From: Terrabacter sp. Root85
GTDB lineage: Bacteria; Actinomycetota; Actinomycetes; Actinomycetales; Dermatophilaceae
Assembly: GCF_001429185.1 (NCBI RefSeq)
Contig: NZ_LMIW01000009.1
Span: 62,001 to 126,000 of the forward strand
Length of the DNA stretch: 64,000 nt
Reading direction: 5' to 3'
This document shows positions 1 to 62,585 of the stretch, piece by piece (position 1 is the stretch's first letter; the number at the start of each line of letters is the position of its first letter). The translations under genes and the position numbers were made by a program. The notes under the pieces are model-generated. The model searched no databases and was not told where the DNA came from. It was given only the letters and a program-made list of their open reading frames with translations.

Positions 1-1993
1 CGCCGGTGGGCTCGAGCCGCACGAGCGGTGCGCCGGTCTCGACCTGGCTGCCGACGGAGACGAGCAGCTCGCGCACGCGGGCGGCGAAGGGCGCCGGGAG
101 GACCGTCTCCATCTTCATCGACTCGAGGACGAGCACCGGGGCACCGGCGGCGACCTCGTCGCCCACGGCCGCGGGGGTGGCGACGACGAGCGCGGGCGCG
201 GGCGAGCGCACGACGCCGCCCTCGTCGCGGGACACGCGGTGGGTCACGCCGTCGACCTCGACGAGGTGGACGGGGCCGTGGGTGGCGGTCACGAGGCGGT
301 GCGCGCGTCCCTCGACGACGATGCGGCCGGCATACTCGTCGATGCGGTCGAGCGTCGCGTCGACGACGTGCTCGTCGCCGCCGTTGGCGATGGAGACGCG
401 GTAGCGGTGCGACGCGGTGCGCAGCACCATGACCTTGTATGCCGTGCCGCGCAGCTTGAGGTCGATGGCGCGGCCGACCGTGTGCTGCACCTGCGGACGG
501 CCCCCGCGGGCCGACTCGAGCAGGCGGGCCCGCTCGATGGCCTCCGCGTCCTCGTAGGCCTCGATGCCGGCGGCGACGAGCGCGACGCCGGAGTGGCGGT
601 GCGACACGAGGCGGCCCTCGGCGCGGACGCGGTCGATCCAACCGGTGTCGGCGGAGCCGTCGATGATCTCGGGCTGGTCGAGCAGGTCGAGGATGAAGCT
701 CTTGTTCGTCGAGCCGCCGTCGATGACGACGGTCGTCTCGGCCATGGCGCGGCGCAGGCGGGCGAGGGCCTCGTCGCGGTCGCGGCCGTGGGCGATGATC
801 TTGGCGATCATCGAGTCGAAGTCGGCGGGGATCGAGTCGCCCTCTCCCACACCGGTGTCGACGCGGATGCCGGGACCGGCCGGGAACTGGAGCAGGCTGA
901 TGCGGCCGGGGCTCGGGGCGAAGTCGCGGTCGGGGTCCTCGGCGTTGAGGCGGGCCTCGACGGCGTGGCCGCGCTGCGTGGGGCGGCCGCCGGGCAGATC
1001 GTCGAGACGCCCGCCGTTCGCGACGTGGATCTGGAGCTTGACGAGGTCGGTGTCGGTGACGACCTCGGTGATCGGGTGCTCGACCTGGAGGCGGGTGTTG
1101 ACCTCGAGGAAGGCGAAGAAGCGCTCGCCCGGGTGGTAGAGGAACTCGACGGTCCCGGCGCCGGCGTAGCCGACCGCGATGGCGAGCCGCTCGGCGCTGG
1201 CGCGGACCTCGTCCTCCTGCTCGGGGCGCAGGACGGGAGAGGCGGACTCCTCGATGACCTTCTGGTTGCGGCGCTGCACCGAGCAGTCGCGCACGCCCAC
1301 GGCCCACGCGGAGCCCTGGCCGTCGGCGATGACCTGGACCTCGATGTGGCGGGCGCCGGTGACGAGCTTCTCGAGGAAGACGACGCCCGAGCCGAACGCG
1401 CGCTGGGCCTCGTCGCGGGTGCGCTCGTAGGCATCGGTGAGGTCGGCGTCGGAGTCGACGCGGCGGATGCCGCGGCCACCACCGCCGGCGGTCGCCTTGA
1501 GCATGAGGGGATAGCCGATGCGTGCGGCTGCTGCCTTCGCGTCCTCGAGGGTGTCGACGCCGCCGCGGCTCCACGGCGCGACGGGGACGCCGACCTCCTC
1601 GGCGATGAGCTTGCTGCCGATCTTGTCACCGAGCTTGCGCATGGCATCGGGGCTCGGGCCGATGAAGGTGACGCCGACGCGCTCGCACAGCTCGGCGAAG
1701 GCGGGGTCCTCGGCGACGAAGCCCCAGCCGACCCACGCCGCGTCGACCTTCGTCTCGCGCAGGGCGCGCTCGAGGACGGCGTGGTCGAGGTAGGGGCGCG
1801 CCGAGGCCGGTCCGAGGTCGTAGGCGTCATCGCTCTCGCGCACGAACATGGCCCGCCGCTCGCCCTCGGTGTGCAGGGCGACCGTCTCGATGCGGTGGCC
1901 GTCGCGACCCGCGGCGGCGTTGAGGTCCCGCACCGCGTGGATGAGCCGCATGGCGGCCTCGCCGCGGTTCACGATGGCGATGCGCGAGATCAT
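1..1993 (-). CDS. Acyl-CoA carboxylase biotin carboxylase/biotin carrier subunit (5' part; runs off the window)
   Basis: ATP-dependent carboxylation of protein-bound biotin, first half-reaction of an acetyl-/propionyl-CoA carboxylase, cytosolic. The 664 visible residues hold the biotin carboxylase N domain, an ATP-grasp domain with the glycine loop KATAGGGGRGIR near residue 168, the biotin carboxylase C domain, a linker and a biotinyl domain. The biotin-accepting lysine lies in ESMKMET (codon 113-115, residue 627). Start: ATG at 1993 behind a GAAGGAG ribosome site. The frame stays open to base 1, about 37 residues past the biotin site, where many AccA-type proteins would end soon. I infer, but cannot see, a fused carboxyltransferase domain like that in some long actinobacterial homologues. 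The substrate (acetyl-, propionyl- or another acyl-CoA) cannot be told from this part. Confidence 0.9.
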   Translation of the reverse strand, partial: MISRIAIVNRGEAAMRLIHAVRDLNAAAGRDGHRIETVALHTEGERRAMFVRESDDAYDLGPASARPYLDHAVLERALRETKVDAAWVGWGFVAEDPAFAELCERVGVTFIGPSPDAMRKLGDKIGSKLIAEEVGVPVAPWSRGGVDTLEDAKAAAARIGYPLMLKATAGGGGRGIRRVDSDADLTDAYERTRDEAQRAFGSGVVFLEKLVTGARHIEVQVIADGQGSAWAVGVRDCSVQRRNQKVIEESASPVLRPEQEDEVRASAERLAIAVGYAGAGTVEFLYHPGERFFAFLEVNTRLQVEHPITEVVTDTDLVKLQIHVANGGRLDDLPGGRPTQRGHAVEARLNAEDPDRDFAPSPGRISLLQFPAGPGIRVDTGVGEGDSIPADFDSMIAKIIAHGRDRDEALARLRRAMAETTVVIDGGSTNKSFILDLLDQPEIIDGSADTGWIDRVRAEGRLVSHRHSGVALVAAGIEAYEDAEAIERARLLESARGGRPQVQHTVGRAIDLKLRGTAYKVMVLRTASHRYRVSIANGGDEHVVDATLDRIDEYAGRIVVEGRAHRLVTATHGPVHLVEVDGVTHRVSRDEGGVVRSPAPALVVATPAAVGDEVAAGAPVLVLESMKMETVLPAPFAARVRELLVSVGSQVETGAPLVRLEPTG

Positions 1994-2104
1994 CGGTGCT
2001 CCTTCAGACGGGGGTGGTGTCGCACCCTGCAGCCTTCCACGCCTGCCCGGTGACCGGCGAGTAGACAGGCGCGGAGTCGTGGGGTGCGTGGTTCGGCCGG
2101 TCGG

Positions 2105-5893: not shown

Positions 5894-5959
5894 GGCGTGA
5901 GTATGCCGTCCGGTCGCGTCGGTCACGGTCAGGTCGGCTCGCGCACTAGCGTCCTGACC

Positions 5960-6373
5960 ATGAGCCGACCCACCAGCGCCGTGCGCCTCATCAGGGCCGC
6001 CGCGCTCACCGACACCGCGCCCTACGCGTATGCCGCGACGACCGACCCCGGCGCCCGGCTCCTCTTCACGGCGGGAGCCTGCCCCCTCGACGAGTCCGGT
6101 GCAACCGTGGCGCCCGGCGACGTCCCAGCCCAGGCCCGGCAGTGCGTGGCCAACCTCGTGACCGCTCTCGAGGCCGCCGGCGCGACGCTGGGGGACGTCG
6201 CCTACACGCGCGTCCTCGTGGCGACGGCCGTCCGCGAGGACCTCGTGGCGGCGTGGACCGTCGTCCACGACGCCTTCGGCGAGCACGAGGTGCCGAGCAC
6301 CCTGCACGGCGTCACCGTCCTCGGCTACCCGGACCAGCTCGTGGAGATCGAGGCCGTCGCCGCGCTCAGGTAG
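5960..6373 (+). CDS. RidA (YjgF/UK114)-family protein
   Basis: 137 residues, typical RidA length; the family forms trimers that hydrolyse reactive enamine/imine intermediates of amino-acid metabolism. The family C-terminal pattern VEIEAVAAL is present. The arginine that binds the substrate carboxylate in the archetype, normally in a P(A)RS/T segment, is missing: the segment reads HEVPSTLHG. That places the protein in one of the Rid subfamilies without proven deaminase activity. ATG 5960 was chosen as the first start after the divergent kinase gene. The last 8 bases overlap the convergent VWA gene. Confidence 0.8.
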   Translation: MSRPTSAVRLIRAAALTDTAPYAYAATTDPGARLLFTAGACPLDESGATVAPGDVPAQARQCVANLVTALEAAGATLGDVAYTRVLVATAVREDLVAAWTVVHDAFGEHEVPSTLHGVTVLGYPDQLVEIEAVAALR

Positions 6374-9758: not shown

Positions 9759-10856
9759 TCAGCCGAGCTCGCGGCACGCGCGGTAGAGGTCGGTCCACTC
9801 GGTGCGGTCCTTGACGACGGTCTCGAGGTACTCATGCCAGACGATGCGGTCCTGGACCGGGTCCTTGACGACGGCGCCGACGAGGCCGGCCGCGACGTCG
9901 TCGGCCCGGACGATGCCGTCGCCGAAGTGGGCGGCGAGCGACAGCCCGTTGGTCATGACCGAGATGGCCTCGGCGGTCGACAGCGTCGCCGACGGCGACT
10001 TGACGGTGGTCCGCTGGTCGGCGGTGACCCCCGAGCGCAGCTCGCGGAAGATCGTGACGACGCGCTCGATCTCGGCGAGGGACTCGAGCCCGGGCGGCAA
10101 TTCGAGCGAGCGGCCCAGCGAGTCGACGCGGGTGCGGACGATCTCGACCTCCTGCGCGAGGGTGTCGGGCAGGGGCAGCACGAGGGTGTTGAAGCGGCGC
10201 TTGAGGGCCGACGAGAGGTCGTTGACACCCTTGTCGCGGTTGTTGGCGGTGGCGATGACGTTGAAGCCCTGCTGCGCCTGCACCTCGGAGTCGAGCTCGG
10301 GGATCGGCAGGTGCTTCTCGGACAGGATCGTGATGAGGGCGTCCTGGACGTCAGCCGGGATGCGCGTCAGCTCCTCGATGCGCACGAGGGTCCCGGTCTC
10401 CATGGCCCGCATGACCGGGCTCGGCACGAGCGCGCCGCGCGTCGGCCCCTCGGCGAGCAGGCGCGCGTAGTTCCAGCCGTAGCGCAGCGACTCCTCGGGC
10501 GTGCCGGCCGTGCCCTGGACGACGAGCGTCGACGAGCCGCTGACGGCGGCCGCGAGGTGCTCGCTGACCCATGTCTTGGCCGTGCCCGGCACGCCGAGGA
10601 GCAGCAGGGCCCGGTCGGTGGCGAGCGAGGCGACGGCGACCTCCATGAGCCGCCGTGACCCGAGGTACTTCGGGGTGATCTCGGTGCCGTCGTCGAGCGT
10701 GCCGCCGAGGAGGTAGGTCGTGACGGCCCACGGCGACAGCCTCCATCGCGGAGGGCGGGGGCGGTCGTCGGAGGCAGCGAGGGCGGTCAGCTCGGCGGCA
10801 TACGCGTCTTCGGCGTGGGCGCGCAGGACCGTGGTGGGAGAGGGTGATTCGCTCAT
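9759..10856 (-). CDS. MoxR-family AAA+ ATPase (YehL-like)
   Basis: 365 residues. Walker A GVPGTAKTW (near residue 90), a Walker B-type segment VRIEELTRIP, sensor 1 ATANNRDKG and an arginine-finger region (SSALKRRF) mark a MoxR-type AAA+ ATPase, a hexameric ATP-driven remodelling enzyme. MoxR proteins work with VWA-domain partners to insert metal or activate protein complexes; the partner is encoded two genes downstream. The ATG (10856) overlaps the stop of the DUF5691 gene by 4 bases. The ATPase motifs are complete, so it should be active. Confidence 0.9.
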   Translation of the reverse strand: MSESPSPTTVLRAHAEDAYAAELTALAASDDRPRPPRWRLSPWAVTTYLLGGTLDDGTEITPKYLGSRRLMEVAVASLATDRALLLLGVPGTAKTWVSEHLAAAVSGSSTLVVQGTAGTPEESLRYGWNYARLLAEGPTRGALVPSPVMRAMETGTLVRIEELTRIPADVQDALITILSEKHLPIPELDSEVQAQQGFNVIATANNRDKGVNDLSSALKRRFNTLVLPLPDTLAQEVEIVRTRVDSLGRSLELPPGLESLAEIERVVTIFRELRSGVTADQRTTVKSPSATLSTAEAISVMTNGLSLAAHFGDGIVRADDVAAGLVGAVVKDPVQDRIVWHEYLETVVKDRTEWTDLYRACRELG

Positions 10857-12373
10857 CTGAAGGCCTCGGTGATCGATCGCTTGACGGAGTGGAACTGGAG
10901 CAGGTGGCGCAGGTTGGTCGTCAGGGTCTGGTCGGCGCCGCTGGACTCGAGCCAGCGCTCGACGGCGTCGAGCGCGGCGGGGTGCAGCCCGGCGACGAGG
11001 TAGGGCATCGTCGCGACGACGATCGCCGAGCCCTGGGGTGCGGCGCGGAGCCGGGACACGAGGGCGACGCTGTAGTCGGCCGACCACGGGGGCTCGACGG
11101 CCGCGATGACGGCGGCCGCGTGGTGCGGCTTGGTGCTCGTCGCGTCGACGCGCCTCAGCACGGCTCGCTCACGCAACTCACGCGGAAGGGCGGGCACGAG
11201 CGTCGGGTCCCAGCCGCCGTCGAGGAGCGCCGCCGCCCACTCGGGGTCGCGTCGGACTCGCACGGCACGGCGTATGCCGGCCAGGGCGTCCGTCGCCTGC
11301 GCGTCGGTGAGGCGCTTGACCGTCGCCACCGGACCCGCGCCGGTCAGCTCGGCCCAGAGCTCGAGCGGGGCGCCGGCGCAGAGCTGCTCGAGCCACCAGC
11401 CGCGGGCGGAGCGGCGCGGCGGGGGCTTGCCGAGGCCGTCGCGCACGGCTGCGTCGTCCGGCTCGTCGGGCAGCCGCACCTCGACGCCGCGACCGAGCAG
11501 GCCGGTGCGCTGGACGAGCGGTCGCAGCCGCGCGGCCATGCGAGCGGCGCGTGCCGAGTCCGGAAGGGCGTCGAGCAGCTCGGCCGCCAGCTCACGCACA
11601 CTGGCGGCCCGGTCGTCGAGAGCGTCCTCGAGGAGCGGCTCGTCGTCGGGGCCGAGGGCGATGCGCAGGGCGTCGAGGTGTGCGCGTCGGTCGCGCGCCG
11701 CGTCGGTGGCCCAGGTGGAGCGGACGAGCTCGCGCGCCGCAGCCGGGTCGTGGGCCCGGACACCGGTGAGCACGGTGACCCGGTCGGTCGAGGGCAGGCG
11801 GGCCCAGTCGTCGGCCCGCGGCGCGGCGCCGGTCCGGCGCGAGGCGGTGCGGGCCTCGGCGCCCGCGGAGGCGTCGGCGACCCACGACCACTCGTCGCGC
11901 AGCCCGGCGAGCCATCGGCCCCGTTCGTCGAGCACCGCGGCCGTCGGGCGCCGCAGCTCGCGCGCCCCGGTGGCGAGCGCGAGCAGCGTCGGCAGCAGGG
12001 CGTGCGGCACCCGGCAGCCGGCGTCGTCGGCGGCACCCAGCCAGTGCGCGAGCAGGGCGCTGCGCTGCTGGGCCCCGGCCGGAGGCTGGGTCATGACGAG
12101 CTCGAGCAGCTGGACGGCCCGGCGCGGGGCCACGGGACGACGGTCGTCGGGGGCGGCTTCCGGTGGGTCGGCGTGGTCGAGCCGGCGCCCCGCGCGCAGG
12201 GCCGCGCCGCCCAGCGCGGCGGCGTCGAGGAGGGCCTCCTCGCGGGAGGACTCGCCGGAACGTCCCAGGACACCGGCCCGCCCGAGATCGGGCAGCGGGG
12301 GCGCCGGCCGGCGCGCCGTGCCCAGCAGCGCGGCGTTGCCGACGTCGCGCCACCACGTGTCGACATCGCTCAC
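10853..12373 (-). CDS. DUF5691 family protein
   Basis: 506 residues, largely alpha-helical, with HEAT-like stretches rich in Leu/Ala/Arg. The N-terminal WWRDVGNAALLGTARR segment and the C-terminal LRHLLQFHSVKRSITEAF segment look well conserved. Known to me only as DUF5691, which accompanies MoxR, VWA and SWIM genes in actinobacteria and cyanobacteria; no biochemical role is known. The start is GTG 12373, overlapping the SWIM stop as GTGA, and the end overlaps the MoxR ATG. A helical scaffold or adaptor for the ATPase is a reasonable but untested inference. Confidence 0.8.
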   Translation of the reverse strand: MSDVDTWWRDVGNAALLGTARRPAPPLPDLGRAGVLGRSGESSREEALLDAAALGGAALRAGRRLDHADPPEAAPDDRRPVAPRRAVQLLELVMTQPPAGAQQRSALLAHWLGAADDAGCRVPHALLPTLLALATGARELRRPTAAVLDERGRWLAGLRDEWSWVADASAGAEARTASRRTGAAPRADDWARLPSTDRVTVLTGVRAHDPAAARELVRSTWATDAARDRRAHLDALRIALGPDDEPLLEDALDDRAASVRELAAELLDALPDSARAARMAARLRPLVQRTGLLGRGVEVRLPDEPDDAAVRDGLGKPPPRRSARGWWLEQLCAGAPLELWAELTGAGPVATVKRLTDAQATDALAGIRRAVRVRRDPEWAAALLDGGWDPTLVPALPRELRERAVLRRVDATSTKPHHAAAVIAAVEPPWSADYSVALVSRLRAAPQGSAIVVATMPYLVAGLHPAALDAVERWLESSGADQTLTTNLRHLLQFHSVKRSITEAFR

Positions 12374-13676: not shown

Positions 13677-13747
13677 GACTCGCACATCATGACCGACACC
13701 CCCCACACCCGTGGGCGGAGCGCCGTATGCCGTGTCGCCGCGTGCGG

Positions 13748-20610: not shown

Positions 20611-20672
20611 CTGTCCAGTGTGCGCCCGTACGGCCGCCGGGTCCATGGGGGACCCGACGGCATACGTCCTCG

Positions 20673-21746: not shown

Positions 21747-21770
21747 CCACCGCCCCGGAAACAGACCGTG

Positions 21771-21795
21771 TGCCGCCTGGCCCGGCCAGGCGGCA
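21771..21795 (-). terminator. Strong hairpin downstream of the DUF2853 gene
   Basis: TGCCGCCTGGC (21771-21781) and GCCAGGCGGCA (21785-21795) pair perfectly over 11 bases with a 3-base loop. It lies 43 bases past the DUF2853 stop in its direction of transcription. There is no U-tract, as is common for terminators in high-GC actinobacteria. The right arm runs directly into a CGGCATAC octamer (21791-21798). Confidence 0.6.
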
Positions 21796-21837
21796 TACGT
21801 TCGTCCGCGTCCGAAGGGACGCGGTCAGCAGCGGAGG

Positions 21838-40301: not shown

Positions 40302-40324
40302 GCCGGTCCGACCGACCGGGCTCA
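40299..40324. terminator. Bidirectional terminator spanning both stop codons
   Basis: TGAGCCGGTC (40299-40308) and GACCGGGCTCA (40314-40324) pair with one bulged G around a CGACC loop. The stem includes the stop codons of the lipase (plus) and of the SDR-TspO gene (minus), and would end both transcripts. Confidence 0.6.
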
Positions 40325-49453: not shown

Positions 49454-49482
49454 CGGCATACGACCTCGCGTACGTTCGAGAG

Positions 49483-51267
49483 GTGACGGCGGACCTGCAG
49501 CAGCGGGCGCGGTGGGAGCGGCTGCTCCCGGGTGTGGCGGTGCTGCGCCGCTACGACAAGGTGTGGTTGCGCGGCGACGTGCTCGGCGGCATCACGGTCG
49601 CCGCCTACCTCGTGCCCCAGGTGCTCGCCTACGCCGAGGTGGCCGGGCTTCCCGCGGTCAGCGGGCTGTGGGCCGTCGGGCCGGGACTGCTCGTCTACGC
49701 GGTGCTCGGGTCGTCGCGACAGCTGTCCGTCGGGCCCGAGTCGACGACCGCGCTCATGACGGCTGCCGGCGTGGGTGCGCTCGTGACGGCCGGCGGGGGC
49801 ATGGCGATGCGCCAGGAGATGGCTGCGCTCCTCGCGATCGCCGTCGGGCTCATCTGCCTCGTCGGCTTCGTGACGCGGCTCGGCTTCCTCTCCGACCTGC
49901 TGTCGAAGCCGGTGCTCGTCGGCTACATGGCCGGCATCGCGGCACTCATGATCGTCAGCCAGATCGGCAAGGTGACCGGGCTCCACGTCGAGGGCGACTC
50001 CTTCCTCCAGGAGGTGAGGTATGCCGTCACGCACCTCGGCGACGTCCAGGTGCCGACGGTGCTGCTGTCGCTGGGCGTGCTCGTCGTGCTCTTCGCCTTC
50101 CAGCGCTTCGCGCCGCTCTGGCCGGGGCCGCTCATCGCGATGCTCGGGGCGACGGTGGTCGCCGCCGTCCTCGACCTCGCCGACCGTTTCGGGATCACGC
50201 TCGTCGGCCCCGTGCCGGAGGGGCTCCCGTCCTTCTCGCTGCCAAACGTGTCCGACGTCGACGTGTGGGCCCTGCTGCCTGCGGCCCTGGGCGTCGCGGT
50301 CGTCGCCTACTCGGACAACGTGCTGACCGGGCGGGCCTTCGCCGGTCGCCACCGCGAGACCATCGACAGCGACCAGGAGTTCCTGGCCCTCGGCGGCGCC
50401 AACGTCGCGACCGGCCTGCTGCAGGGCTTCCCGATCAGCTCGAGCGGCAGCCGCACCGTCATCGCCGACTCGATGGGGGCACGCACCCAGCTGCACTCCC
50501 TCGTCTCGCTCGTCCTCGTCATCGCGACCCTGCTCTGGCTCGGGCCGGTCATCGCGGCCTTCCCCACCGCGGCGCTCGGCGCCGTCGTCGTCTACGCCGC
50601 GATCCGCCTCGTCGACATCGCCGAGATGCGGCGCATCGGCGCGTTCCGGCGCAGCGAGCTCGTGCTGGCGCTCGCGACGACCGCCGCCGTGCTCCTCTTC
50701 GGGGTGCTGCCCGGCATCGGGGCGGCGATCGCGCTCTCGGTGCTCGACCTGCTGCGCCGCATCGTCCACCCGCACGACGGGGTCCTCGGCTACGTGCCCG
50801 ACGTCGCGGGCATGCACGACGTCGACGACCACCCGGACGCCGTGCAGGTGCCCGGACTCGTCGTCTACCGCTACGACTCGCCCCTCTTCTTCGCCAACTC
50901 CGACGACTTCGTCAGCCGTGCCCTCAAGGTCGTCGACGAGGCGACCCGCCACGCACGGGTCGAGTGGTTCCTGCTCAACGCCGAGGCCAACACCGAGGTC
51001 GACCTCACGGCGGTCGACGCGCTCGAGACGCTGCGCTCGACGCTCTCGGACCGGGAGATCCGCTTCGCCATGGCCCGGGTCAAGGAGGACATGCGGCTCT
51101 CGCTCGAGGCGGGTGGCTTCATCGACAAGGTCGGGACGGACCTCATCTTCCCGACGCTGCCGACCGCCGTGGCCGCGTATGCCGCGTGGTACGAGCGCGA
51201 GCACGGCTCTGGTCCGCCCGGGCTCCGGATCCCACCCGTGCCGGTCCAGCCCGAGCCCGACGCCTAG
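49483..51267 (+). CDS. SulP-family anion transporter with STAS domain
   Basis: 594 residues. The SulP transporter domain of about 12 helices (DVLGGITVAAYLVPQVLAYA; FPISSSGSRTVI) is followed by a C-terminal STAS domain (about residues 450-560; ANSDDFVSRALKVVDEA). Members carry sulfate, bicarbonate or other anions; substrate unknown here. GTG 49483 was chosen; the frame is open further upstream only through the cobK gene. It follows cobK by 29 bases in the same orientation. No tie to cobalamin is obvious. Confidence 0.85.
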   Translation: MTADLQQRARWERLLPGVAVLRRYDKVWLRGDVLGGITVAAYLVPQVLAYAEVAGLPAVSGLWAVGPGLLVYAVLGSSRQLSVGPESTTALMTAAGVGALVTAGGGMAMRQEMAALLAIAVGLICLVGFVTRLGFLSDLLSKPVLVGYMAGIAALMIVSQIGKVTGLHVEGDSFLQEVRYAVTHLGDVQVPTVLLSLGVLVVLFAFQRFAPLWPGPLIAMLGATVVAAVLDLADRFGITLVGPVPEGLPSFSLPNVSDVDVWALLPAALGVAVVAYSDNVLTGRAFAGRHRETIDSDQEFLALGGANVATGLLQGFPISSSGSRTVIADSMGARTQLHSLVSLVLVIATLLWLGPVIAAFPTAALGAVVVYAAIRLVDIAEMRRIGAFRRSELVLALATTAAVLLFGVLPGIGAAIALSVLDLLRRIVHPHDGVLGYVPDVAGMHDVDDHPDAVQVPGLVVYRYDSPLFFANSDDFVSRALKVVDEATRHARVEWFLLNAEANTEVDLTAVDALETLRSTLSDREIRFAMARVKEDMRLSLEAGGFIDKVGTDLIFPTLPTAVAAYAAWYEREHGSGPPGLRIPPVPVQPEPDA

Positions 51268-51736: not shown

Positions 51737-52658
51737 GCGCTGTCGCGGCCGCGACAGCGACGGCGACGGCGAGGGAGCCGACGCTCACGCGTCGCGCGAG
51801 GCGGGCGGCCGGGCCGATGTCGTGGGCCCTCGCCGCCGGGCCGGTGCCGAGGGTGCCGCGGTCCTCGCTCTCGCCGTCGTAGACGTTCGATCCCCCGAGC
51901 CGCACCCCGAGCACGCCGGCGAAGGCGGCCTCGACGACGCCGCCGTTCGGGCTCGGGTGGGCCGGGGCGTCACGCCGGACGGCCGCCCAGCCGGCGACGG
52001 CTCGCTCCCTGGACCCGGCGCTCGCCAGGGTCAGGGCGGCCGCGACCCGGGCCGGGACCCAGTTGACGACGTCGTCGAGCCTCGCTGCGGCCCAGCCGAA
52101 CTCGCGGTAGCGGTCGTTGCGGTGGCCGACCATCGCGTCGAGCGTGTTGACGGCGCGATAGCCGAGCAGCCCGGGGACGCCGAGCAGAGCGCCCCAGAGG
52201 AGCGGCGCGACGACCGCGTCGGACGTGTTCTCGGCGAGCGACTCGATGCAGGCGCGGGCGACCTCGTCGGCGTCGAGCCGCGTCGTGTCCCGCCCGACGA
52301 GGTGGCGCACCTGCACCCGGGCGGCCTCGAGGTCACCCCGCCGCAGCTGGCCGTCGATCGTGGACGCCTCGCGCGTCAGTGAGCGACCGCCGAGCACGGC
52401 CCAGGTCGCCGCGGCGGTCACGAGGGTGTGGGCGACGTCGCTGCGCCGCGTCGACCGCTCGGCCACGACGCCGAGGCCGGCGGTGGCGCCCACGAGCAGC
52501 GCGACGTGCGCGACGCCGCGAGCTCGCCGGACGGCATACGTCCGCTGCTCGAGGGCCGTTGCGGCCGAGCCGAACCCGGCCACGGGGTGCCAGCGGCGCG
52601 GGTCACCGAAGGCCCGGTCGAGCGCCCAGCCCAGGACCAGCCCGGCGGACCGGCTCAT
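51702..52658 (-). CDS. cobD: Cobalamin biosynthesis protein CobD/CbiB
   Basis: Adenosylcobinamide-phosphate synthase: attaches the aminopropanol (or its phosphate) arm to adenosylcobyric acid; integral membrane protein. 318 residues, usual length. Diagnostic text: GWALDRAFGDPRRWHPVAGF at the N terminus, ENTSDAVVAPLLWG in the middle, and a final AAFAGVLGVRLGGSNVYDG. ATG 52658 overlaps the cobA stop (ATGA). The C-terminal GRGRPRRRR tail overlaps the MOSC gene on the other strand. Confidence 0.92.
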   Translation of the reverse strand: MSRSAGLVLGWALDRAFGDPRRWHPVAGFGSAATALEQRTYAVRRARGVAHVALLVGATAGLGVVAERSTRRSDVAHTLVTAAATWAVLGGRSLTREASTIDGQLRRGDLEAARVQVRHLVGRDTTRLDADEVARACIESLAENTSDAVVAPLLWGALLGVPGLLGYRAVNTLDAMVGHRNDRYREFGWAAARLDDVVNWVPARVAAALTLASAGSRERAVAGWAAVRRDAPAHPSPNGGVVEAAFAGVLGVRLGGSNVYDGESEDRGTLGTGPAARAHDIGPAARLARRVSVGSLAVAVAVAAATALRGRGRPRRRR

Positions 52659-53665: not shown

Positions 53666-54716
53666 GGTGGAGTCTCCTCAGGTCGTCGAGCGCCGCGGCG
53701 ACGCCGCGTGAGGTCGCGGGGTCACGCACGGCGAGCCGGATCCACGTCGGGCCGAGGCCGGGGAACGTCTCGCCCCGGCGCACGGCGAACCCGAGGCGGG
53801 CGAGGTCCTCGCGGACGGACTCTGCGCCGACAGGGCTCGTGTCCACGAGGACGAAGGGCGCCGCCGACGGGGCCGCGGCGCGCAGCCCGACGGCGGCGAG
53901 CTCGCCCACGAGCACTGCACGGTCGGCGGCGAAGGACACGGCCGCTGCCTCCGCCTCGGCGACGGCGCGCTCGGACAGGCAGGCGACCGTGGCGGCGAGG
54001 GCAGGGCTCGAGACGGCCCACGGCGGCTGCACGCCACGGAGGCCGGCGACGAGCGCAGGGTCTCCGACGACGTAGCCGGCACGCAGGCCGGCCAGGCCCC
54101 ACGTCTTCGTCAGCGACCGGACGACGATCAGCCCTTCGAGGTCGCGACCGACGACCGACTCGGGCTCGCCCGGCACGGCGTCCATGAAGGCCTCGTCGAT
54201 GACGACGACGCGCCCGCTCCGGCGCAGCGACCGCACGTCGCCGGCGGGGTGCAGCACCCCCGTGGGGTTCGTCGGGTTGCCGACGACGACGAGGTCGGCG
54301 GCGGCGTGCTCGCCGGACGGGCCGAAGGACGACGGGTCGAGGCGGAAGCCGTTCTCGTGCGGCAGCACGCACCGGTCGACCGGTCGACCGGCTGCGACGA
54401 GGGCTGCCTCGGGCTCGGTGAACTGCGGGTGCACGACGACGGGGCGGCCGCCGGAGACCGCGCGGGCGACGAGCGTGAACGCCTCGGCCCCTCCCGCGGT
54501 CGGCAGCACGCACTCAGGGTCGACGCGGTGCCGTCGTGCGATGGCAGCGACCGCCGCTGACGGGTCCGGGTATCTCCCGAGGTCGTGCAGCGAGACCGCG
54601 ATGACGTCGGCGAGCCATGGCGGCGGCGCCGGCAGCCGGACGTTGACGGCGAGGTCGACGAGACCGGGGACGACGTCACGGTCGCCGTGGTGGTGCAGGT
54701 CGACGTGCCCGCTCAC
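53655..54716 (-). CDS. cobC: Threonine-phosphate decarboxylase-like aminotransferase (CobC)
   Basis: 353 residues, class I/II PLP aminotransferase fold. PLP lysine in RSLTKTWGLAGLRAGYVV (near residue 205); VVGNPTNPTGVL and a C-terminal RLAVRDPATSRG arginine segment match CobC/CobD-type enzymes. Makes (R)-1-amino-2-propanol phosphate from L-threonine phosphate for the nucleotide loop. Starts with GTG 54716, overlapping the cobB stop by GTGA. The HDLHHHGDRDVV-type start (GHVDLHHHGD) is typical. Confidence 0.9.
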   Translation of the reverse strand: MSGHVDLHHHGDRDVVPGLVDLAVNVRLPAPPPWLADVIAVSLHDLGRYPDPSAAVAAIARRHRVDPECVLPTAGGAEAFTLVARAVSGGRPVVVHPQFTEPEAALVAAGRPVDRCVLPHENGFRLDPSSFGPSGEHAAADLVVVGNPTNPTGVLHPAGDVRSLRRSGRVVVIDEAFMDAVPGEPESVVGRDLEGLIVVRSLTKTWGLAGLRAGYVVGDPALVAGLRGVQPPWAVSSPALAATVACLSERAVAEAEAAAVSFAADRAVLVGELAAVGLRAAAPSAAPFVLVDTSPVGAESVREDLARLGFAVRRGETFPGLGPTWIRLAVRDPATSRGVAAALDDLRRLHHVA

Positions 54717-56239
54717 GACGCCCTCCGGCGCGAGGCGGTCGTGACGGCATACGCGTGGACGGCCTCGGCGAAGCGGGCAGCGAGCCGGGGGTGACCCGCC
54801 CAGTGGGTGTGGAGGTAGGACGCGTGCAGGGTGGCGCGGCCGGTGCCGGCGGGGTCGAGGGCGAAGCCGTCGGGCGTCCCGTCGAGCAGCCAGGCCGCCG
54901 AGCTGGGCCGCTGCTCGCCGCCCACGGTCGTCCGGTGGAACTCGTGGCCCGTCACGCGGGTGCCGGCCACCGAGAGCACCGAGTCGCCCGGGGCGATCGC
55001 GGTGCGGTAGCCCAAGGTGAGGCGTGGGCCCATCGCCCCCACCGTCGGGATGGCGCCGACCATCTCGTGGCCGTCGACGGACTCGGAGAGGTAGAGCATG
55101 CCCGCGCACTCGGCCACGGTCGGCAGGCCGCCGCGGACGGCGTCCAGGATGTCCTCGCGCAGGTCGGAGTTCGCGGACAGGTCCTCGGCGTGGACCTCGG
55201 GGAAGCCGCCGCCGAGGTAGAGCCCGGCCGTGCCCGCGGGCAGGGACCGCGCGTGGAGCGGGTCGAAGACGACCGGCTCGAGGCCCGCGGCCCGGAGCAG
55301 CTCGTCGGTCTCCGCGTAGCGGAAGGTGAAGGCACGGCCGCCCGCGACGGCCACGACGGGACGCCGCCCGGTCGGGGCCGGCCGGGCGGCCTCGCCGAGG
55401 ACGGTGGCAGCGTCCCACGCCGGGACGTCGAGGTCGGGGGCCGACCGGGCGATCGACAGCACCGCGTCGAGGTCGACGTGCTCGGCCACGCGCTCGGCGA
55501 GCAGCCGCACCGACCGGGCGGCCTCCTCGCGCTCGGCGGCGGGCACGAGGCCGAGGTGACGCGACGGGGCCTCGATGCCGGCGTCGCGCGGCAGCACTCC
55601 GAGGACCGGGACCCCGGTCGCCTCGAGCGCTGACCAGACCTCGCGGGTGTGCCGGCCCGACGCAGCCTTGTTGAGGACGACCCCGGCGACGCGGACCCCG
55701 GGCTCGAAGGTCGCGAGGCCGTGGACGATCGCGGCCGCGGTGCGCGTCATGTGGCTGACGTCGAGGGCGAGCACGACCGGCGTGCGGGTCAGGGTCGCGA
55801 CGTGCGCGGTCGACGCGTAGCCGTCGCCGCCGATACGCCCGTCGAAGAGCCCCATGACGCCCTCGACGACGGCGACGTCGGTCGGTCCGCCGGCGGTCGC
55901 GCCGTGCACGAGGAGCGGCGCCACCTGGTCCTGGCCGCAGAGGAAGGGGTCGAGGTTGCGACCGGGTCGGCCCGTGGCGAGCGTGTGGTAGCCGGGGTCG
56001 ATGAAGTCCGGGCCCACCTTGAACCCCGAGACCCCTAGACCACGGGCGCGCAGCGCGGCCATGAGCCCCGTCGCGACGGTCGTCTTGCCGTGGCCCGAGC
56101 CGGGGGCCGCGACGACGAGTCGAGGGAGAGCGGTGGCGCCGGGCACGTCGGGCCCGTCGGGCCCGGCGGAGAGCCGGCCGAGGGCGGTGCCGATCGCCGA
56201 GCCGACGGCGGCGTCGACCGCGCTGCTGAAGGCGCTCAC
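54713..56239 (-). CDS. cobB: Cobyrinic acid a,c-diamide synthase (hydrogenobyrinate diamide synthase)
   Basis: 508 residues. N-terminal P-loop ATPase domain (VVAAPGSGHGKTTVATGLMA) and C-terminal triad-type glutamine amidotransferase domain with the nucleophile in VAECAGMLYLSESVDG and the His/Glu near the end (GHEFHRTTVGG). Amidates side chains a and c of the corrin ring using glutamine and ATP. Start at the GTG pair 56242/56239 behind GAGGGA; it overlaps cobO by 4 bases. The first about 35 residues before the P-loop are an Ala/Gly/Pro linker. Confidence 0.92.
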   Translation of the reverse strand: MSAFSSAVDAAVGSAIGTALGRLSAGPDGPDVPGATALPRLVVAAPGSGHGKTTVATGLMAALRARGLGVSGFKVGPDFIDPGYHTLATGRPGRNLDPFLCGQDQVAPLLVHGATAGGPTDVAVVEGVMGLFDGRIGGDGYASTAHVATLTRTPVVLALDVSHMTRTAAAIVHGLATFEPGVRVAGVVLNKAASGRHTREVWSALEATGVPVLGVLPRDAGIEAPSRHLGLVPAAEREEAARSVRLLAERVAEHVDLDAVLSIARSAPDLDVPAWDAATVLGEAARPAPTGRRPVVAVAGGRAFTFRYAETDELLRAAGLEPVVFDPLHARSLPAGTAGLYLGGGFPEVHAEDLSANSDLREDILDAVRGGLPTVAECAGMLYLSESVDGHEMVGAIPTVGAMGPRLTLGYRTAIAPGDSVLSVAGTRVTGHEFHRTTVGGEQRPSSAAWLLDGTPDGFALDPAGTGRATLHASYLHTHWAGHPRLAARFAEAVHAYAVTTASRRRAS

Positions 56240-56847
56240 CACTCGATCCCTCGCTGGCCCTTCTGGCCCTCGTCGAACGGGTGCTTGACCTTGGTCATCT
56301 CGGTCACGAGGTCGGCGAGGTCGAGGACGGCCTGCGGGCAGCGACGTCCGGTGATGACGACGTGCTGGTGGCCCGGGCGCTCGCGCAGGGTCGCGACGAC
56401 GTCGTCGACGTCGATCCAGCCCCACGCCATCGGGTAGGTGAACTCGTCGAGGACGTAGACGGCGTGCGTCTCGGCAGCGAGCCGGCGCTTGATCTCCGCC
56501 CACCCCTCGCGAGCCGCCTCGGCGTGGTCGTCCTCGGTGCCCTCCTTGCGGGTCCAGGACCAGCCGGCGCCCATCTTGTGCCACTCCATCGGACCGCCCT
56601 TGCCGGTCTCGCGGTGCAGCTCGGCGAGGGTCTCGACGGCGGTCTGCTCGCCGATGCGCCACTTCGCGCTCTTGACGAACTGGAACACGCCGACCGACCA
56701 GCCCTGGTTCCAGCCGCGGAGGGCCAGGCCGAAGGCGGCCGTCGACTTCCCCTTGCCGTCGCCGGTGTTGACGATGAGCAGGGGCCGGTTGCGACGCTGG
56801 CGCGTCGTGAGGCCGTCCTCGGGGACGGTCGTCGGCTGGCCGCGCAT
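56236..56847 (-). CDS. cobO: Cob(I)yrinic acid a,c-diamide adenosyltransferase (CobO/BtuR)
   Basis: 203 residues. P-loop NTGDGKGKSTAAFGLALRG near residue 27, VGVFQFVKSAKWRIGE and HAVYVLDEFTYPM are CobO-family hallmarks. Transfers the 5'-deoxyadenosyl group from ATP to the cobalt of the corrin, making the adenosylated form that CarH also uses. ATG 56847 overlaps the chelatase stop by 1 base (TGATG). Confidence 0.93.
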   Translation of the reverse strand: MRGQPTTVPEDGLTTRQRRNRPLLIVNTGDGKGKSTAAFGLALRGWNQGWSVGVFQFVKSAKWRIGEQTAVETLAELHRETGKGGPMEWHKMGAGWSWTRKEGTEDDHAEAAREGWAEIKRRLAAETHAVYVLDEFTYPMAWGWIDVDDVVATLRERPGHQHVVITGRRCPQAVLDLADLVTEMTKVKHPFDEGQKGQRGIEW

Positions 56848-58982
56848 CAGGCGGCCCGCCCCGTCGGGCGCGGCGTGCGTGCCGCGCCGACGATGGCCGA
56901 CGCGGCGAGCTCGCCGACGGGCAGGTGCTCGGCGCCGAGGTGCTCGGCGAGCCGGGCCGCCAGCCCCATCCGGAAGCGCCCCGACTCGCAGTCGAGCACG
57001 ACGCTCTCGACTCCTTCGCCGCGAAGCCGGGTGGCGACGCGCGCGGCGCGGCCCAGCGCGTCGGCGCCGCTCGTGGCCCGGCCGTCCGTGACGACGACGA
57101 GGAGCGCGCGCCGGTTGGGGTCGCGCAGGCGCTCGACGCGCAACGTGTCGAATGCCGTCCCGAGCCCTTCCGCGAGCGGCGTCCGTCCGCCGTGGGGCAG
57201 GTCGCGAAGCCGCCGGGCCGCGATGTCGACCGAGCCGGTCGGCGGCAGGGTGAGCTCGGCGTCGGACCCGCGGAAGGTCACGAGGCCGACCTTGTCGCGC
57301 CGCTGGTAGGCGTCGAGGAGCAGCGAGAGCACCGCCGACTTCACGGCCTCCATGCGCTTGCGGGCGGCCATCGACCCGGACGCGTCGACGCAGAGCAGCA
57401 CGAGGTTGGACTCCCGACCCTGCAGGACCGAGCGGCGCAGGTCGCCGGGGAGCACGCGCAGGCGTCCCGACCGGTCGCCCGTGGCGCCGCGTCCCGCGGC
57501 CGCGCGGATCGTCGCGGGCACGTGGACCGGCCCGGTGCGGGCGGTCGTCGAGCCGACGCGGCGTCCCGTGCTCGTCAGGGCGGCCGACCGGCGTCCCGGG
57601 TCGCCCTGCCCGATCCCCTTGGCGCGCAGCAGCTTCGCCCGGTAGGGCTCATCGGCCGCGCTCACCGTCGAAGCCGCGGGCACCTCGCTCTCACCGCCCT
57701 CGCCGCCCTCACGGCCCTCGCCGGGCCCCGGCTCGAGCTCGGCGTGCTGGGGCTCGGGCTGTCGTGGCGACTCCTGCCCGTCGGTCCGTGCCGTCTCCGA
57801 CGACGAGCCCGGCTGCGCCTCGCCGTCGTGGTCGTGGTCGTGGTCGCTAGGCTCCGGCTCGCCGCCGTCACCCGGTCCCGGATCCGGCTCGGGGTCCGGC
57901 TCGTCGGCGCCGAGGAGCTCGTCGAGCAGGTCCTCGTCGATCCCGGGGGAGTCGAACGGGTTGCGGCGCCGGCGGTGCGGCAACGCCAGCCGGGCAGCCG
58001 CCCGGACGTCGGCGACGGTGACCACCGTGCGGCCCGACCAGGCCGCGTGGGCGACGGCGGCGCGTGCCGTGACGATGTCGGCGCGCAGACCGTCCACCTC
58101 GAAGCCGGCACAGACGACCGCGATCCGGGTCAGCATCTCGTCCGTCAGGGTCACGGCTCCGACCCGCGACCGCGCGGCGGCGATCCGCCCGCGCAGCGCC
58201 TCCTGGTCGTCCTCGAACCGGGCCGCGAACGCAGCCGGCGACGCGTCGAAGGCCAGCCGGCGGCGTACGACCTCGGCGCGCAGCGCGGGCTCCCGGGGCG
58301 CGGCGACCTCGACGGTCAGCCCGAAGCGGTCGAGCAGCTGCGGGCGCAGCTCGCCCTCCTCGGGGTTCATCGTCCCGACGAGGACGATCCGGGCGGCGTG
58401 CGAGACCGAGACGCCGTCGCGCTCGACGGTGTTGCGGCCCATGGCAGCCGCGTCGAGCAGCAGGTCGACGAGGTGGTCGTGGAGGAGGTTGACCTCGTCG
58501 ACGTAGAGGATGCCGCGGTTCGCGGCCGCGAGCAGGCCGGGCTGGTATGCCGTCTCGCCGCGTCCCAGCGCCCGCTCGAGGTCGAGGGACCCGACGACAC
58601 GGTCCTCGGTGGCGCCGATCGGCAGCTCGACGAGGCGGGCCGCTCGGGTGCCGGCCGCGGCGTCCGGGTCGTGCGGTCCGTCCGGGCATCCGGCGCCGTC
58701 GCCCGGTGCGCAGCCGAAGCGGCAGCCGGCGACGACCTGCTGGCGGGGGAGCACGGCGGCGAGGCCGCGCACCATCGTCGACTTCGCCGTGCCCTTCTCG
58801 CCGCGCACGAGCACGCCGCCCACCTCCGGCGAGACCGCCGTGAGGACGAGCGCCAGGGCCAGGTCGTCGGAGCCGACGACCGCCGAGAAGGGGAAGGTGC
58901 CGGGTGGTGACCCGTGCTGGTCAGGGTCGTTCAGGACATCGTTCGGGACGTCGTTCGGGACGTCGTTCGAGCCGTCGCGCAT
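56847..58982 (-). CDS. Magnesium-chelatase-like AAA+/VWA protein (ChlI-ChlD fusion, putative cobaltochelatase subunit)
   Basis: 711 residues. N-terminal AAA+ domain with Walker A VRGEKGTAKST and the lid VYVDEVNLLHDHLVDLLL, an acidic Pro/Glu-rich linker (about residues 340-430), and a C-terminal VWA domain (VLLCVDASGSMAARKRME). This fusion drives ATP-dependent metal insertion; with CobN (not in this window) it should put cobalt into the ring. An N-terminal NDVPNDVPNDVLND tract is encoded by a 12-base tandem repeat (about 58929-58970). ATG 58982, AGGAGG at 58994-58999. A cobalamin riboswitch precedes it. The frame is open through the riboswitch, so a longer start was rejected. Confidence 0.9.
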   Translation of the reverse strand: MRDGSNDVPNDVPNDVLNDPDQHGSPPGTFPFSAVVGSDDLALALVLTAVSPEVGGVLVRGEKGTAKSTMVRGLAAVLPRQQVVAGCRFGCAPGDGAGCPDGPHDPDAAAGTRAARLVELPIGATEDRVVGSLDLERALGRGETAYQPGLLAAANRGILYVDEVNLLHDHLVDLLLDAAAMGRNTVERDGVSVSHAARIVLVGTMNPEEGELRPQLLDRFGLTVEVAAPREPALRAEVVRRRLAFDASPAAFAARFEDDQEALRGRIAAARSRVGAVTLTDEMLTRIAVVCAGFEVDGLRADIVTARAAVAHAAWSGRTVVTVADVRAAARLALPHRRRRNPFDSPGIDEDLLDELLGADEPDPEPDPGPGDGGEPEPSDHDHDHDGEAQPGSSSETARTDGQESPRQPEPQHAELEPGPGEGREGGEGGESEVPAASTVSAADEPYRAKLLRAKGIGQGDPGRRSAALTSTGRRVGSTTARTGPVHVPATIRAAAGRGATGDRSGRLRVLPGDLRRSVLQGRESNLVLLCVDASGSMAARKRMEAVKSAVLSLLLDAYQRRDKVGLVTFRGSDAELTLPPTGSVDIAARRLRDLPHGGRTPLAEGLGTAFDTLRVERLRDPNRRALLVVVTDGRATSGADALGRAARVATRLRGEGVESVVLDCESGRFRMGLAARLAEHLGAEHLPVGELAASAIVGAARTPRPTGRAA

Positions 58983-59180: not shown

Positions 59181-59191
59181 CGCCCGGCGGC

Positions 59192-60594: not shown

Positions 60595-61824
60595 GTGATC
60601 GAGGTGGTCGGCGTGGGTGCATCCGGGCTGGAGTCCCTCGGCCCCGACGGCCGCCGGCTCGTCGACGAGGCCGAGGTCGTCGTCGGCGGTGAGCGGCATC
60701 TCGCGATGCTCGGGGTCCGTCCCGGCCGGCGCCTCGTGCCGTGGCCGTCGCCCTTGCTCCCGGGCCTGCGGCGCGTGCTCGACGACGCCGGTGCGGGTCG
60801 GGTCGTCGTGCTCGCGAGCGGGGACCCGCTCGTCTCGGGCATCGGGTCGACCCTCGTGCGCGAGCTCGGTGCCGCCGCCGTACGCATCCACCCGGGTGTC
60901 TCGTCGGTTGCGCTCGCCCGAGCCCGGATGCATTGGGCCGCAGAGGATTCCGACGTCGTCACCCTCGTGGGCCGAGATGTCGACCGGCTGCGCCGTGACC
61001 TGGCGCCGCGGGCCCGGCTCGTCGTGCTGACGTCGGGCGACGACGCCCCCGCGCGCATCGCCTCCCTGCTCGTCGAGGAGGGGTATGCCGGCAGCCGGCT
61101 CACGGTGCTCGGTGACCTCGGCTCACCGGCGGAGTCCCGCATCGACGGGCTGGCCGCATCGTGGGACGGCCGTCCCGCCCCTCGACTGCACCTGGTCTGC
61201 GTCGAGTGCGAGCCCCGTCCCGCCCGGAGCGCGAGGTCGCTCGTGCCGGGACTCGACGAGACGGCATACGACCACGACGGGCAGCTGACGAAGCGCGTCG
61301 TGCGCGCGGCCGCGCTGGCCCACCTCGCCCCGCAGCCCGGCGACGTCATGTGGGACCTCGGCGCCGGCGCCGGGTCGGTCGGCATCGAGTTCGCGCGGCA
61401 GCACCCGCGCAACGAGGTCCACTCGGTCGAGCGTGACCCGGAGCGGGCCGAGCGGGTGCGGCGCAACGCCCGTGCGCTCGGGGTGCCCGGGGTGCGGGTC
61501 GTCGAGGCGGCGTCGATCGACGCGGTCGCGGAGCTGCCCCGTCCGGACGCCGTCTTCGTGGGGGGCGGAGCCACCGGCCCGCTGCTCGACGCGTGCTGGT
61601 CCGCACTCGTGCCGGGGGGACGGCTCGTCGTCCACGGCGTCACGGTCGAGACCGAGGTGCTGCTCCACGAGGTCCGGGCCAGGCTCGGTGGGTCGATGAG
61701 CCGGATCGCCGTCGAGGACCTCGACACCATCGGGTCGCTCCACGGCTGGAAGCCTGCGCGGTCGATCGTGCAGTGGTCGGTCGAAAGACCTGTGACACAG
61801 ACGGATTCGGAGACTGACGCATGA
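60595..61824 (+). CDS. cobL: Precorrin-6Y C5,15-methyltransferase (decarboxylating)
   Basis: 409 residues, the CbiE-CbiT two-domain form. The N-terminal methyltransferase part begins VIEVVGVGASGLESLG; the C-terminal Rossmann-type SAM domain has MWDLGAGAGSVGIEFAR and a following VERDPERAERV. Adds methyls at C5 and C15 and decarboxylates the C12 acetate side chain of precorrin-6B. GTG 60595 is the first start of the family sequence; upstream residues of the frame are Arg-rich noise. Its last bases ATGA start cobM. Confidence 0.92.
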   Translation: MIEVVGVGASGLESLGPDGRRLVDEAEVVVGGERHLAMLGVRPGRRLVPWPSPLLPGLRRVLDDAGAGRVVVLASGDPLVSGIGSTLVRELGAAAVRIHPGVSSVALARARMHWAAEDSDVVTLVGRDVDRLRRDLAPRARLVVLTSGDDAPARIASLLVEEGYAGSRLTVLGDLGSPAESRIDGLAASWDGRPAPRLHLVCVECEPRPARSARSLVPGLDETAYDHDGQLTKRVVRAAALAHLAPQPGDVMWDLGAGAGSVGIEFARQHPRNEVHSVERDPERAERVRRNARALGVPGVRVVEAASIDAVAELPRPDAVFVGGGATGPLLDACWSALVPGGRLVVHGVTVETEVLLHEVRARLGGSMSRIAVEDLDTIGSLHGWKPARSIVQWSVERPVTQTDSETDA

Positions 61825-62585
61825 CGGTCCACTTCATCGGTGCCGGCCCGGGTGCCGCCGACCTGCTGACGCTCCGCGCGGTACGGCTCGTCGGGGAGGC
61901 GCAGGTGTGTCTCTATGCCGGCACCTACATCGGGTCGGAGGTGCTCGCGCACTGCCCCGAGGGAGCCGAGCTCGTGGACACCCAGCACCTCGACCTCGAC
62001 GCCATCACCGAGCACTGCGTCCGCGCCCACGCGGCCGGTCACGACGTGGCGCGGCTGTGCTCCGGGGACCCGTCGCTCTACTCCGCCGTCGCCGAGCAGA
62101 CCCGGCGGCTCGACCGCGCGGGGGTGCCGTGGGACGTGACGCCCGGCGTTCCCGCGTATGCCGCTGCTGCTGCCCTCATCGGTCGCGAGCTGACGGTCCC
62201 CGAGGTCGCGCAGTCCGTGGTGCTGACCCGGGCCCACCGCGACTCGACGCAGATGCCCGAGACGGAGTCGCTCGCCCACTTCGCGCGGTCCCGAGCCACG
62301 CTCGTGCTGCACCTCGCGATCCGCCGCACCCGCGAGCTCATGGCGTCGCTCGTCGGCGACTACGGCGACGACTGCCCCGTGGTCGTCGTCGCCAACGCCG
62401 AGCAGCCCGACCAGCTCGTGCTGCGCGGGACCCTGGCCGACATCGCCGACCAGGTCGAGGCCGCCGGTCTGCGTCAGGCCGCGGTCATCCTCGTCGGACG
62501 CGCGCTCGCCGCGCGCGACGCCGACGACTTCGTCGAGTCGCACCTCTACGGCACGCGGATCACCCGAAACACGCCGGGCGCCTAG
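61821..62585 (+). CDS. cobM: Precorrin-4 C11-methyltransferase
   Basis: 254 residues, tetrapyrrole methylase fold: VHFIGAGPGAADLLTLRAVR at the N terminus, YAGTYIGSEVLAHCPEGA, and VARLCSGDPSLYSAVAEQ. Methylates C11 of precorrin-4 to precorrin-5. ATG 61821 overlaps the cobL stop. CobI, CobJ, CobH and CobN, needed around it, are not in the window and may lie to the right or elsewhere. Confidence 0.93.
   Translation: MTVHFIGAGPGAADLLTLRAVRLVGEAQVCLYAGTYIGSEVLAHCPEGAELVDTQHLDLDAITEHCVRAHAAGHDVARLCSGDPSLYSAVAEQTRRLDRAGVPWDVTPGVPAYAAAAALIGRELTVPEVAQSVVLTRAHRDSTQMPETESLAHFARSRATLVLHLAIRRTRELMASLVGDYGDDCPVVVVANAEQPDQLVLRGTLADIADQVEAAGLRQAAVILVGRALAARDADDFVESHLYGTRITRNTPGA

Follow-up and report, generated by a model that had tools for sequence, protein, structure and literature searches.

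A probable DNA uptake signal in Terrabacter and its actinobacterial family

Introduction

Uptake of DNA by means of short sequence tags is known only from the Neisseriaceae and the Pasteurellaceae, as far as the cited passages go (PMC12616744), and a 2026 terminator survey of thousands of genomes describes uptake words, in its cited parts, for these two families (PMC13020248). The DNA uptake sequence (DUS) of Neisseria reaches about 1900 copies, evenly spread over both strands, in the three genomes of Table 3 in PMC1852404. Neisseria meningitidis Z2491, for example, has 958/934 copies, with 226 +- pairs and five -+ pairs, and such pairs are most frequent between convergent genes (PMC1852404). 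Eight DUS dialects are described for the Neisseriaceae, and one genome carries two of them (PMC3630211). The uptake signal sequence (USS) of Haemophilus influenzae, with 1471 copies, is also even over the strands and paired in terminators (PMC1852404), its consensus is weaker 3' of the core (PMC1939737), and two types exist within the Pasteurellaceae (PMC12616744). Here, we analyse the octamer GTATGCCG, which is strongly over-represented in a stretch of 64,000 nucleotides (hereafter the window) of Terrabacter sp. Root85 (contig NZ_LMIW01000009.1, positions 62,001 to 126,000), and which quite probably serves natural transformation as a DNA uptake signal by which the cells recognise their own kind.

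The resemblance to both systems, as they appear in the passages cited above, is close. Like the DUS, GTATGCCG has a high copy number, even strands, inward pairs, an enrichment between convergent genes and dialects; like the USS, it is iterated, strand-even, paired as hairpins, with a weaker flank and with dialects in its family. Unlike the DUS, its sequence is unrelated, its hosts are Actinomycetota, the type IVa pilus protein PilM is found in only 7/184 genomes of the family, and one alternative word is unrelated to it. From the USS it differs by an unrelated sequence and by a flank without AT tracts. It was rejected as a neisserial DUS or a Pasteurellaceae USS proper, because the core is GTATGCCG and not GCCGTCTGAA, AAGTGCGGT or one of their dialects. 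An earlier reading of the window, made from the letters alone (hereafter the sequence-only reading), had discounted uptake signals, as it found no match among those it knew. The letters indeed differ, but the anatomy, meaning the copy number, the even strands, the hairpin pairs at gene ends, the confinement to a clade and the dialects, is of the uptake-signal type. Another highly iterated octamer, HIP1 of cyanobacteria, is palindromic, in contrast to GTATGCCG, whose copies pair to form hairpins.

Within the Actinomycetota, the transformation of Micrococcus luteus depends on tad genes, and this species has comEA and comEC and no comG cluster, according to the cited passages (PMC4322843, PMC6370729). 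In having comEA, comEC and tad loci, the actinobacterial hosts of GTATGCCG resemble M. luteus; the passages on that species mention no uptake sequence. None of the matches listed in a literature search, with most subscription journals outside its coverage, reported an actinobacterial uptake signal.

Results and discussion

The octamer and its complement occur 40 times in the window, 22 times on the plus and 18 times on the minus strand, where a third-order Markov model expects 2.2 copies, an excess of about 18-fold. The mean spacing is 1585 bases. The sequence-only reading had counted these copies by hand, and its figures held: all 40 coordinates and the strand split are exact, and its estimates of about two expected copies, a 20-fold excess and one copy per 1.6 kb are close to the computed values. 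GTATGCCG and its one-base shifts top the repeated 7-mers and 8-mers of the window, and the remaining high z-scores mostly belong to words which occur once and have an expectation near zero. A genome-wide count, which that reading had called for, shows that the excess persists. The Terrabacter genome (4.87 Mb, 15 contigs) holds 2300 copies, 1168 forward and 1132 reverse, versus 237 (112 / 125) of the reversed word, the sole control in our whole-genome counts.

The word is non-palindromic, with CGGCATAC as its reverse complement, and has a short flank consensus. Among 222 copies, 66% have C at -1, 86% T/C at +8 and 63% C at +9, to which the codon period of 3 contributes, so that the extended form in Terrabacter is approximately cGTATGCCGyC. 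The flank preference depends on the genome: G125 has G at -1 in 86% (28 copies), and G165 has G at +9 in 79% (48 copies). AT tracts do not flank the word. Here and below, G numbers denote genomes (G000 is that of the window), g numbers genera and L numbers loci.

The excess is a DNA-level signal and is not explained by protein sequence, as supported by codon-context tests, by the excess between genes and by the conservation of orthologous copies. Genes were called in 464 kb with a program of our own in place of a standard gene caller, the 464 kb being 400 kb of one contig and the window. The 222 copies in this sequence divide into 146 in called genes and 76 between genes, where intergenic DNA makes up about 12% of the sequence. 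The main coding frames, as noted in the sequence-only reading, are Tyr-Ala (TAT-GCC) with 87 and Ala-Tyr (GCA-TAC) with 37 of the 146 coding copies. Met-Pro (11), Gly-Ile (9) and Arg-His (2) are minor frames, and five of the six possible frames are thus used. Shuffling of synonymous codons at constant protein sequence gives an expectation of 9.8 coding copies for the 400 kb, versus 116 observed. Between the genes of the same 400 kb, 65 copies were observed versus 0.82 under a first-order model, an excess of about 80-fold. Furthermore, the codon choice follows the word. Tyrosine is encoded by TAT in 87/111 cases in the context xxG-TAY-GCC-G versus 102/2460 elsewhere (odds ratio 84, p 2e-85), and alanine by GCA in 37/78 cases in the context xCG-GCN-TAC versus 744/17408 elsewhere (odds ratio 20, p 2e-29). 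TAT is also raised where the context departs from GTATGCCG by one base (12/73 and 8/34), which is what partial or decayed words would give. An explanation by codon pairs was therefore rejected, as synonymous shuffles and context tests leave the excess intact. The sequence-only reading had argued that protein sequence is no explanation and had named codon usage beforehand as the test of its claim; on both points our results side with it.

Both strands are used evenly, with 87/95 copies in the 400 kb, 115/119 over stretches from five further genomes, and 101966/102327 summed over the 113 genomes in which the word is abundant (see below). Neighbouring copies form more close pairs than expected, and these are mostly directed inward. 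Within 60 bases, 12 pairs were observed versus 4.3 expected among the 182 copies of the 400 kb. Ten of them are inward (+-), one is outward and one tandem, and six of the 12 have an exact spacing of 22 nt. Four inward pairs were folded, and all gave hairpins (-22.8 to -30 kcal/mol, z -4.3 to -8.6). The density of intergenic copies per kb is 2.01 in convergent, 1.62 in tandem and 0.47 in divergent regions; the copies between genes therefore favour gene 3' ends. The spacing is slightly even, with coefficients of variation of 0.76 and 0.79 against 1 for random placement.

Intact copies do not form close pairs in the window, but there is a half-decayed pair, in the intergenic hairpin at 21767-21799. 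Here, GTGTGCCG at 21768-21775 faces CGGCATAC at 21791-21798, which is the minus-strand copy in the 3' arm. Together they make a hairpin of 15 pairs, and the segment 21762-21805 folds with -33 kcal/mol (z -6.5). Three relatives have GTATGCCG at 21768, where the window has GTGTGCCG. The intergenic plus-strand copy at 28877-28884 lies near the centre, close to the loop, of a longer inverted repeat, the arms of which read CTACCTCAGA, in the segment 28850-28910 (-31.6 kcal/mol, z -3.9). These two segments correspond to the hairpin arm and the inverted-repeat centre which the sequence-only reading had pointed out, and both fold well.

Most copies persist in related genomes. Homologous 60-kb regions of six relatives from the same genus, which are not independent of each other, were aligned to the window. 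Intact words were retained in 29/35, 26/30, 25/33, 31/36, 20/26 and 22/30 of the aligned copies, which corresponds to 73-87% per relative and to 153/190 when pooled. In the same six relatives, the share of identical octamers was 62.5, 64.0, 46.4, 38.0, 37.1 and 30.3% for other octamers, 66.9, 68.5, 53.9, 47.0, 46.0 and 38.4% for octamers of equal A+T content, and 57.7, 69.2, 45.7, 38.1, 26.3 and 29.4% for octamers flanking the copies. Among the 37 altered orthologous copies, 25 have single-base differences. Nine of the 25 are T-to-C changes at position 4, the commonest variant, and the other 16 fall on positions 1, 2, 3, 4, 7 and 8, transversions included. The relatives also each hold 4 to 11 copies at aligned sites which lack one in this genome. 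A hypermutable relic, one of the possibilities offered by the sequence-only reading, is disfavoured by the 153/190 intact orthologous copies.

The abundance of GTATGCCG is confined to one family among those sampled. The Genome Taxonomy Database (GTDB) places Terrabacter in the Dermatophilaceae, and in the NCBI taxonomy the genus stands within the Intrasporangiaceae. The family was sampled with 186 genomes from 53 genera, 184 of which were included in the profile and alternative-word searches. We considered genomes as rich at 80 or more copies per Mb, a cut-off of our own choice, and six of the rich genomes lie just above it (81-102 per Mb). By this measure, 113/186 genomes from 32 genera are rich (81 to 1356 per Mb), 11 have 35-80 copies per Mb and 62 fewer than 35. 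In a sample of the whole order (396 genomes, 34 of them from this family), rich genomes occurred only within this family. The remaining 362 genomes, which represent 19 further families, included none that was rich or exceeded 94 copies per strand, and in the four highest of them the reversed word reached counts of the same order. Contrasts also occur within genera, namely between G008 and four others in g4, G084 and two others in g33, and G114 and 30 others in g42.

Sister genera carry alternative words, which are mostly exclusive. These were sought in stretches of motif-poor genera as words in excess in coding as well as intergenic DNA, and three of them were then counted genome-wide. GCGAAGGGG is abundant throughout g27 (16/16 genomes, 230-608 per strand) and g36 (3/3, 628-971), and does not exceed 63 per strand in the other 165/184. 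CGGATGCCG is abundant in G178, G017, G018, G034 and G035 (909-1175 per strand). Two genomes of g15, G036 and G037, hold two words, with 434-534 copies of CGGATGCCG and 566-623 of GTATGCCG per strand; the next-highest genomes for CGGATGCCG have about 230. For CGTACGACG, high counts per strand were obtained in G090, G089 and G084 (634-837) and in G088, G002 and G003 (323-437), whereas several further genomes are intermediate. The exclusion is imperfect, with 143-185 GTATGCCG per strand in G034/G035, 109-138 in G017/G018 and 94-107 in G002 and G003. One of the alternative words is unrelated in sequence to GTATGCCG, and the words differ even inside one genus, as in g15 and in g33. Among the dialects, that of CGTACGACG is the weakest, because words of the GTACGCCG type are also in modest excess elsewhere (38 vs 16.5 in three Nocardioides loci).

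A word finder, which requires both a coding and an intergenic excess, recovered the same words; it is no independent test, as it was run largely on the stretches where the words were first noticed. Its top word was GTATGCCG, shifted by at most two bases, in 7/7 GTATGCCG genomes, and in 5/5 genomes with other words it returned the respective word or one close to it, namely CGGATGCCG (G178), CGAAGGGG (G093), GCGAAGGG (G056), CGTACGCC (G090) and CGTACGGCG (G084). Six motif-poor genomes scored 3.0-4.3 and the lowest motif-rich genome 5.0. No credible word was found in G008, G020, G011, G161, G184 and G001, with 60-80 kb searched in each. In two of these, repeats of another kind were seen. G001 (L131-L133) has GCACCCTG and GCGCCCTG, with 24 and 28 copies, in excess between genes only, and we therefore regard them as an intergenic repeat and not as an uptake-like word. 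G184 (L043-L046) has an intergenic repeat with GAGTAGGT and related words, of which 14 copies lie between genes and two in genes.

Seven genomes of other families were also searched with the word finder. Three scored 2.6-2.9, and the highest score, 8.9, was that of G205 from a second family, with the word CGGATGCC. The word held up when more sequence was examined: in the loci L180-L182 and L188-L190 of G205, it has 74 coding copies vs 12.3 expected and 14 intergenic copies vs 1.47, with strand counts of 42/46. The extended form CGGATGCCYC (CGGATGCC[TC]C) was counted in 249 genomes of the second family. It reaches 834/799 in G205, where the reversed word has 2/2, and 653/656 in G328. Several genera show intermediate counts, and the majority low ones. 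Because a second family carries such a word by the hundreds in some genera, uptake-like words may be more widespread in Actinomycetota than this one family. Other high-scoring words were of the CGACGGCG type in G352 (L177-L179, 8.2) and G190 (L168-L170, 5.3), and CCGAGGCG in G191 (L171-L173, 5.3). These may be further words or ordinary composition.

Genes for DNA import are widespread in the family. ComEC was found in 179/184 genomes, and all of the remaining five are drafts split into at least 330 contigs. In the genome of the window, a ComEA with SLBB and HHH domains is encoded directly before ComEC. The motif-poor G084 also encodes this ComEA-ComEC pair. T2SSE, the ATPase family of the TadA class, is present in 183/184 genomes (181 over its cut-off), and TadE in 13/14 genomes tested. 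The genome of the window has Tad loci with T2SSE, T2SSF and TadE proteins. A further Tad locus (L150:9298-11191, on G000:C13) retains the end of a gene resembling T2SSF, together with four small genes for pilin-like proteins, of which two match Pfam TadE or Tad; in 20 kb at this locus there were no matches to the TadA and TadB of G125. ComEC, PilM and T2SSE were rejected as separators of motif-rich and motif-poor genomes, the first and the last being near-universal and PilM near-absent.

Taken together, the uptake-signal reading fits best among the explanations tested because it accounts for the copy number, the strand balance, the inward pairing at gene ends, the tolerant placement, the persistence, the restriction to a clade and the changes of word. 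We propose that fragments which bear the word are recognised by a surface DNA receptor, which most likely belongs to the Tad/Flp pilus or to the ComEA step. The bound DNA would enter the cell through ComEC and then recombine. Preferential uptake of such fragments would let the copies spread by molecular drive and would keep them against decay. Copies would settle where proteins and promoters tolerate them. Such places would be the codon pairs for Tyr-Ala and Ala-Tyr and the 3' ends of genes, at which inward pairs may have been co-opted as hairpins. If the preference of the receptor shifted, the lineage would change its word, and dialects would arise.

Several observations weigh against this proposal. 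The machinery does not separate the two classes of genomes, as ComEC and T2SSE occur in motif-bearing and motif-free genomes alike. A receptor was sought among clustered called proteins in the Tad loci of 12 genomes, and this gave several Tad clusters as well as pilin-like proteins, none of which tracked the words. After counting GTATGCCG and the three alternatives, 45/186 genomes (19 genera) are left with no assigned word, some of them with intermediate counts. Three genomes of other families score as high in the word finder (5.3, 5.3 and 8.2) as some motif-rich ones, and the close pairs of G205 are not mainly inward, with two inward, one outward and five tandem. A depletion of the word in poorly conserved DNA of the window was not seen, as 6/40 copies lie in the 9.7 kb aligned in at most two of the six relatives. 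Natural competence in these genera was not reported among the matches listed in the literature search, and we know of no uptake experiment.

The same evidence bears on other explanations. A site for an intracellular chromosome or nucleoid protein, either an FtsK-type polar sequence or the target of an organiser protein, would agree with the high density over the stretches read and with the slightly even spacing. The strand counts (22/18, 87/95 and 115/119) show no bias, though, and such a site would not account for mostly exclusive words in sister genera, one of them unrelated in sequence, or for inward pairs at gene ends, which makes this explanation improbable. Strand polarity was rejected on these same counts, and the strong replichore bias of the class of FtsK-orienting polar sequences (KOPS) and Chi was absent from them, as counted on stretches with the replication direction unmapped. 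From the interpretations of the sequence-only reading, the DNA-level signal stands; a strand-oriented chromosome signal is disfavoured by the even balance. A Chi-like hotspot for recombination by RecBCD or AdnAB is slightly less probable still. Chi, too, is an over-represented non-palindromic octamer within and between genes. It is oriented with replication, whereas GTATGCCG has no strand bias on our unmapped stretches; inward hairpin pairing and an 80-fold intergenic excess are not Chi-like either, and the words differ inside g15 and g33.

A bias in repair, mutation or methylation could also create a word, as has been suspected for the cyanobacterial HIP1. The use of several codon frames and of intergenic DNA, the prevalence of T to C at position 4 among the single-base differences, and the raised TAT one base off the word would all be in line with such a bias. 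On the other hand, divergent intergenic regions are poor in the word, copies are retained and not transient, and no single mutation class makes the word, since the 16 other differences span six positions and include transversions. We therefore give this bias as little chance as a Chi-like role. The inward pairs, being strong hairpins at gene ends, recall a terminator or an element of the repetitive extragenic palindromic (REP) type with scattered arms. This is the least probable explanation, and a very unlikely one, given that 146/222 copies lie inside called genes and that most copies are single, the 182 copies of the 400 kb forming just 12 close pairs.

Beyond the single word, it is likely that we are dealing with a third system of DNA uptake signals, which would have evolved independently as the first one among Actinomycetota and outside the Proteobacteria and would be read by competence through Tad/Flp pili, with words that can be replaced outright between sister genera and a related system in at least one more family of the order. 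If true, such self-tags evolve repeatedly, with a third origin in high-GC Gram-positives, and without the need for type IVa pili. Natural competence would then be predicted for many environmental actinobacteria, and genetics in them could become possible by placing the word on DNA. Moreover, replaced words between sister genera would create barriers of sexual isolation, and the g15 genomes with two words in quantity would allow a dialect switch to be studied in progress.

Individual copies and neighbouring genes

The plus-strand copies in called genes of the window lie at 437-444, 5901-5908, 6028-6035, 11272-11279, 16290-16297, 24455-24462, 25268-25275, 30267-30274, 34787-34794, 35541-35548 (altered in five relatives), 38379-38386, 40121-40128, 43220-43227, 48287-48294, 50019-50026, 51177-51184, 58545-58552, 61083-61090 and 62156-62163. 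Those on the minus strand are at 328-335, 10796-10803 (altered in three of the aligned relatives), 12649-12656, 16358-16365, 23489-23496, 27440-27447, 28530-28537, 33719-33726, 40378-40385, 45377-45384, 46831-46838, 52532-52539, 54745-54752 and 61262-61269.

About six intergenic copies had been noticed in the sequence-only reading; the caller gives seven. Besides those at 21791 and 28877 described above, these are 13725-13732 (plus), 17649-17656 (plus), 20658-20665 (minus), 29786-29793 (minus) and 49454-49461 (minus), the last of which directly follows the stop codon of a called gene. The copy at 17649 may be coding, because a frame of 445 amino acids is open across this 1.3-kb stretch without a called gene; two relatives have GGATGCCG in its place.

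The longest stretch free of the word in the 400 kb, at 172.8-183.0 kb of G000:C1 (L009:12747 to L010:3574), contains secY, the genes of the ribosomal proteins S5, L6, L5, L16 and S3, and part of that of L2. The idea that gaps in the motif mark foreign islands was rejected, as this longest gap is a ribosomal-protein and secY region and not a mobile element. The genes in it may not tolerate the rare codons.

Two further observations concern the genes of the window. At 40322-41749, a protein is encoded with an epimerase- or dehydrogenase-like N-terminus and a TspO-like C-terminus. Cobalamin genes, for a cobyrinic acid diamide synthase and a cobaltochelatase-like protein, are located at 54713-58982.

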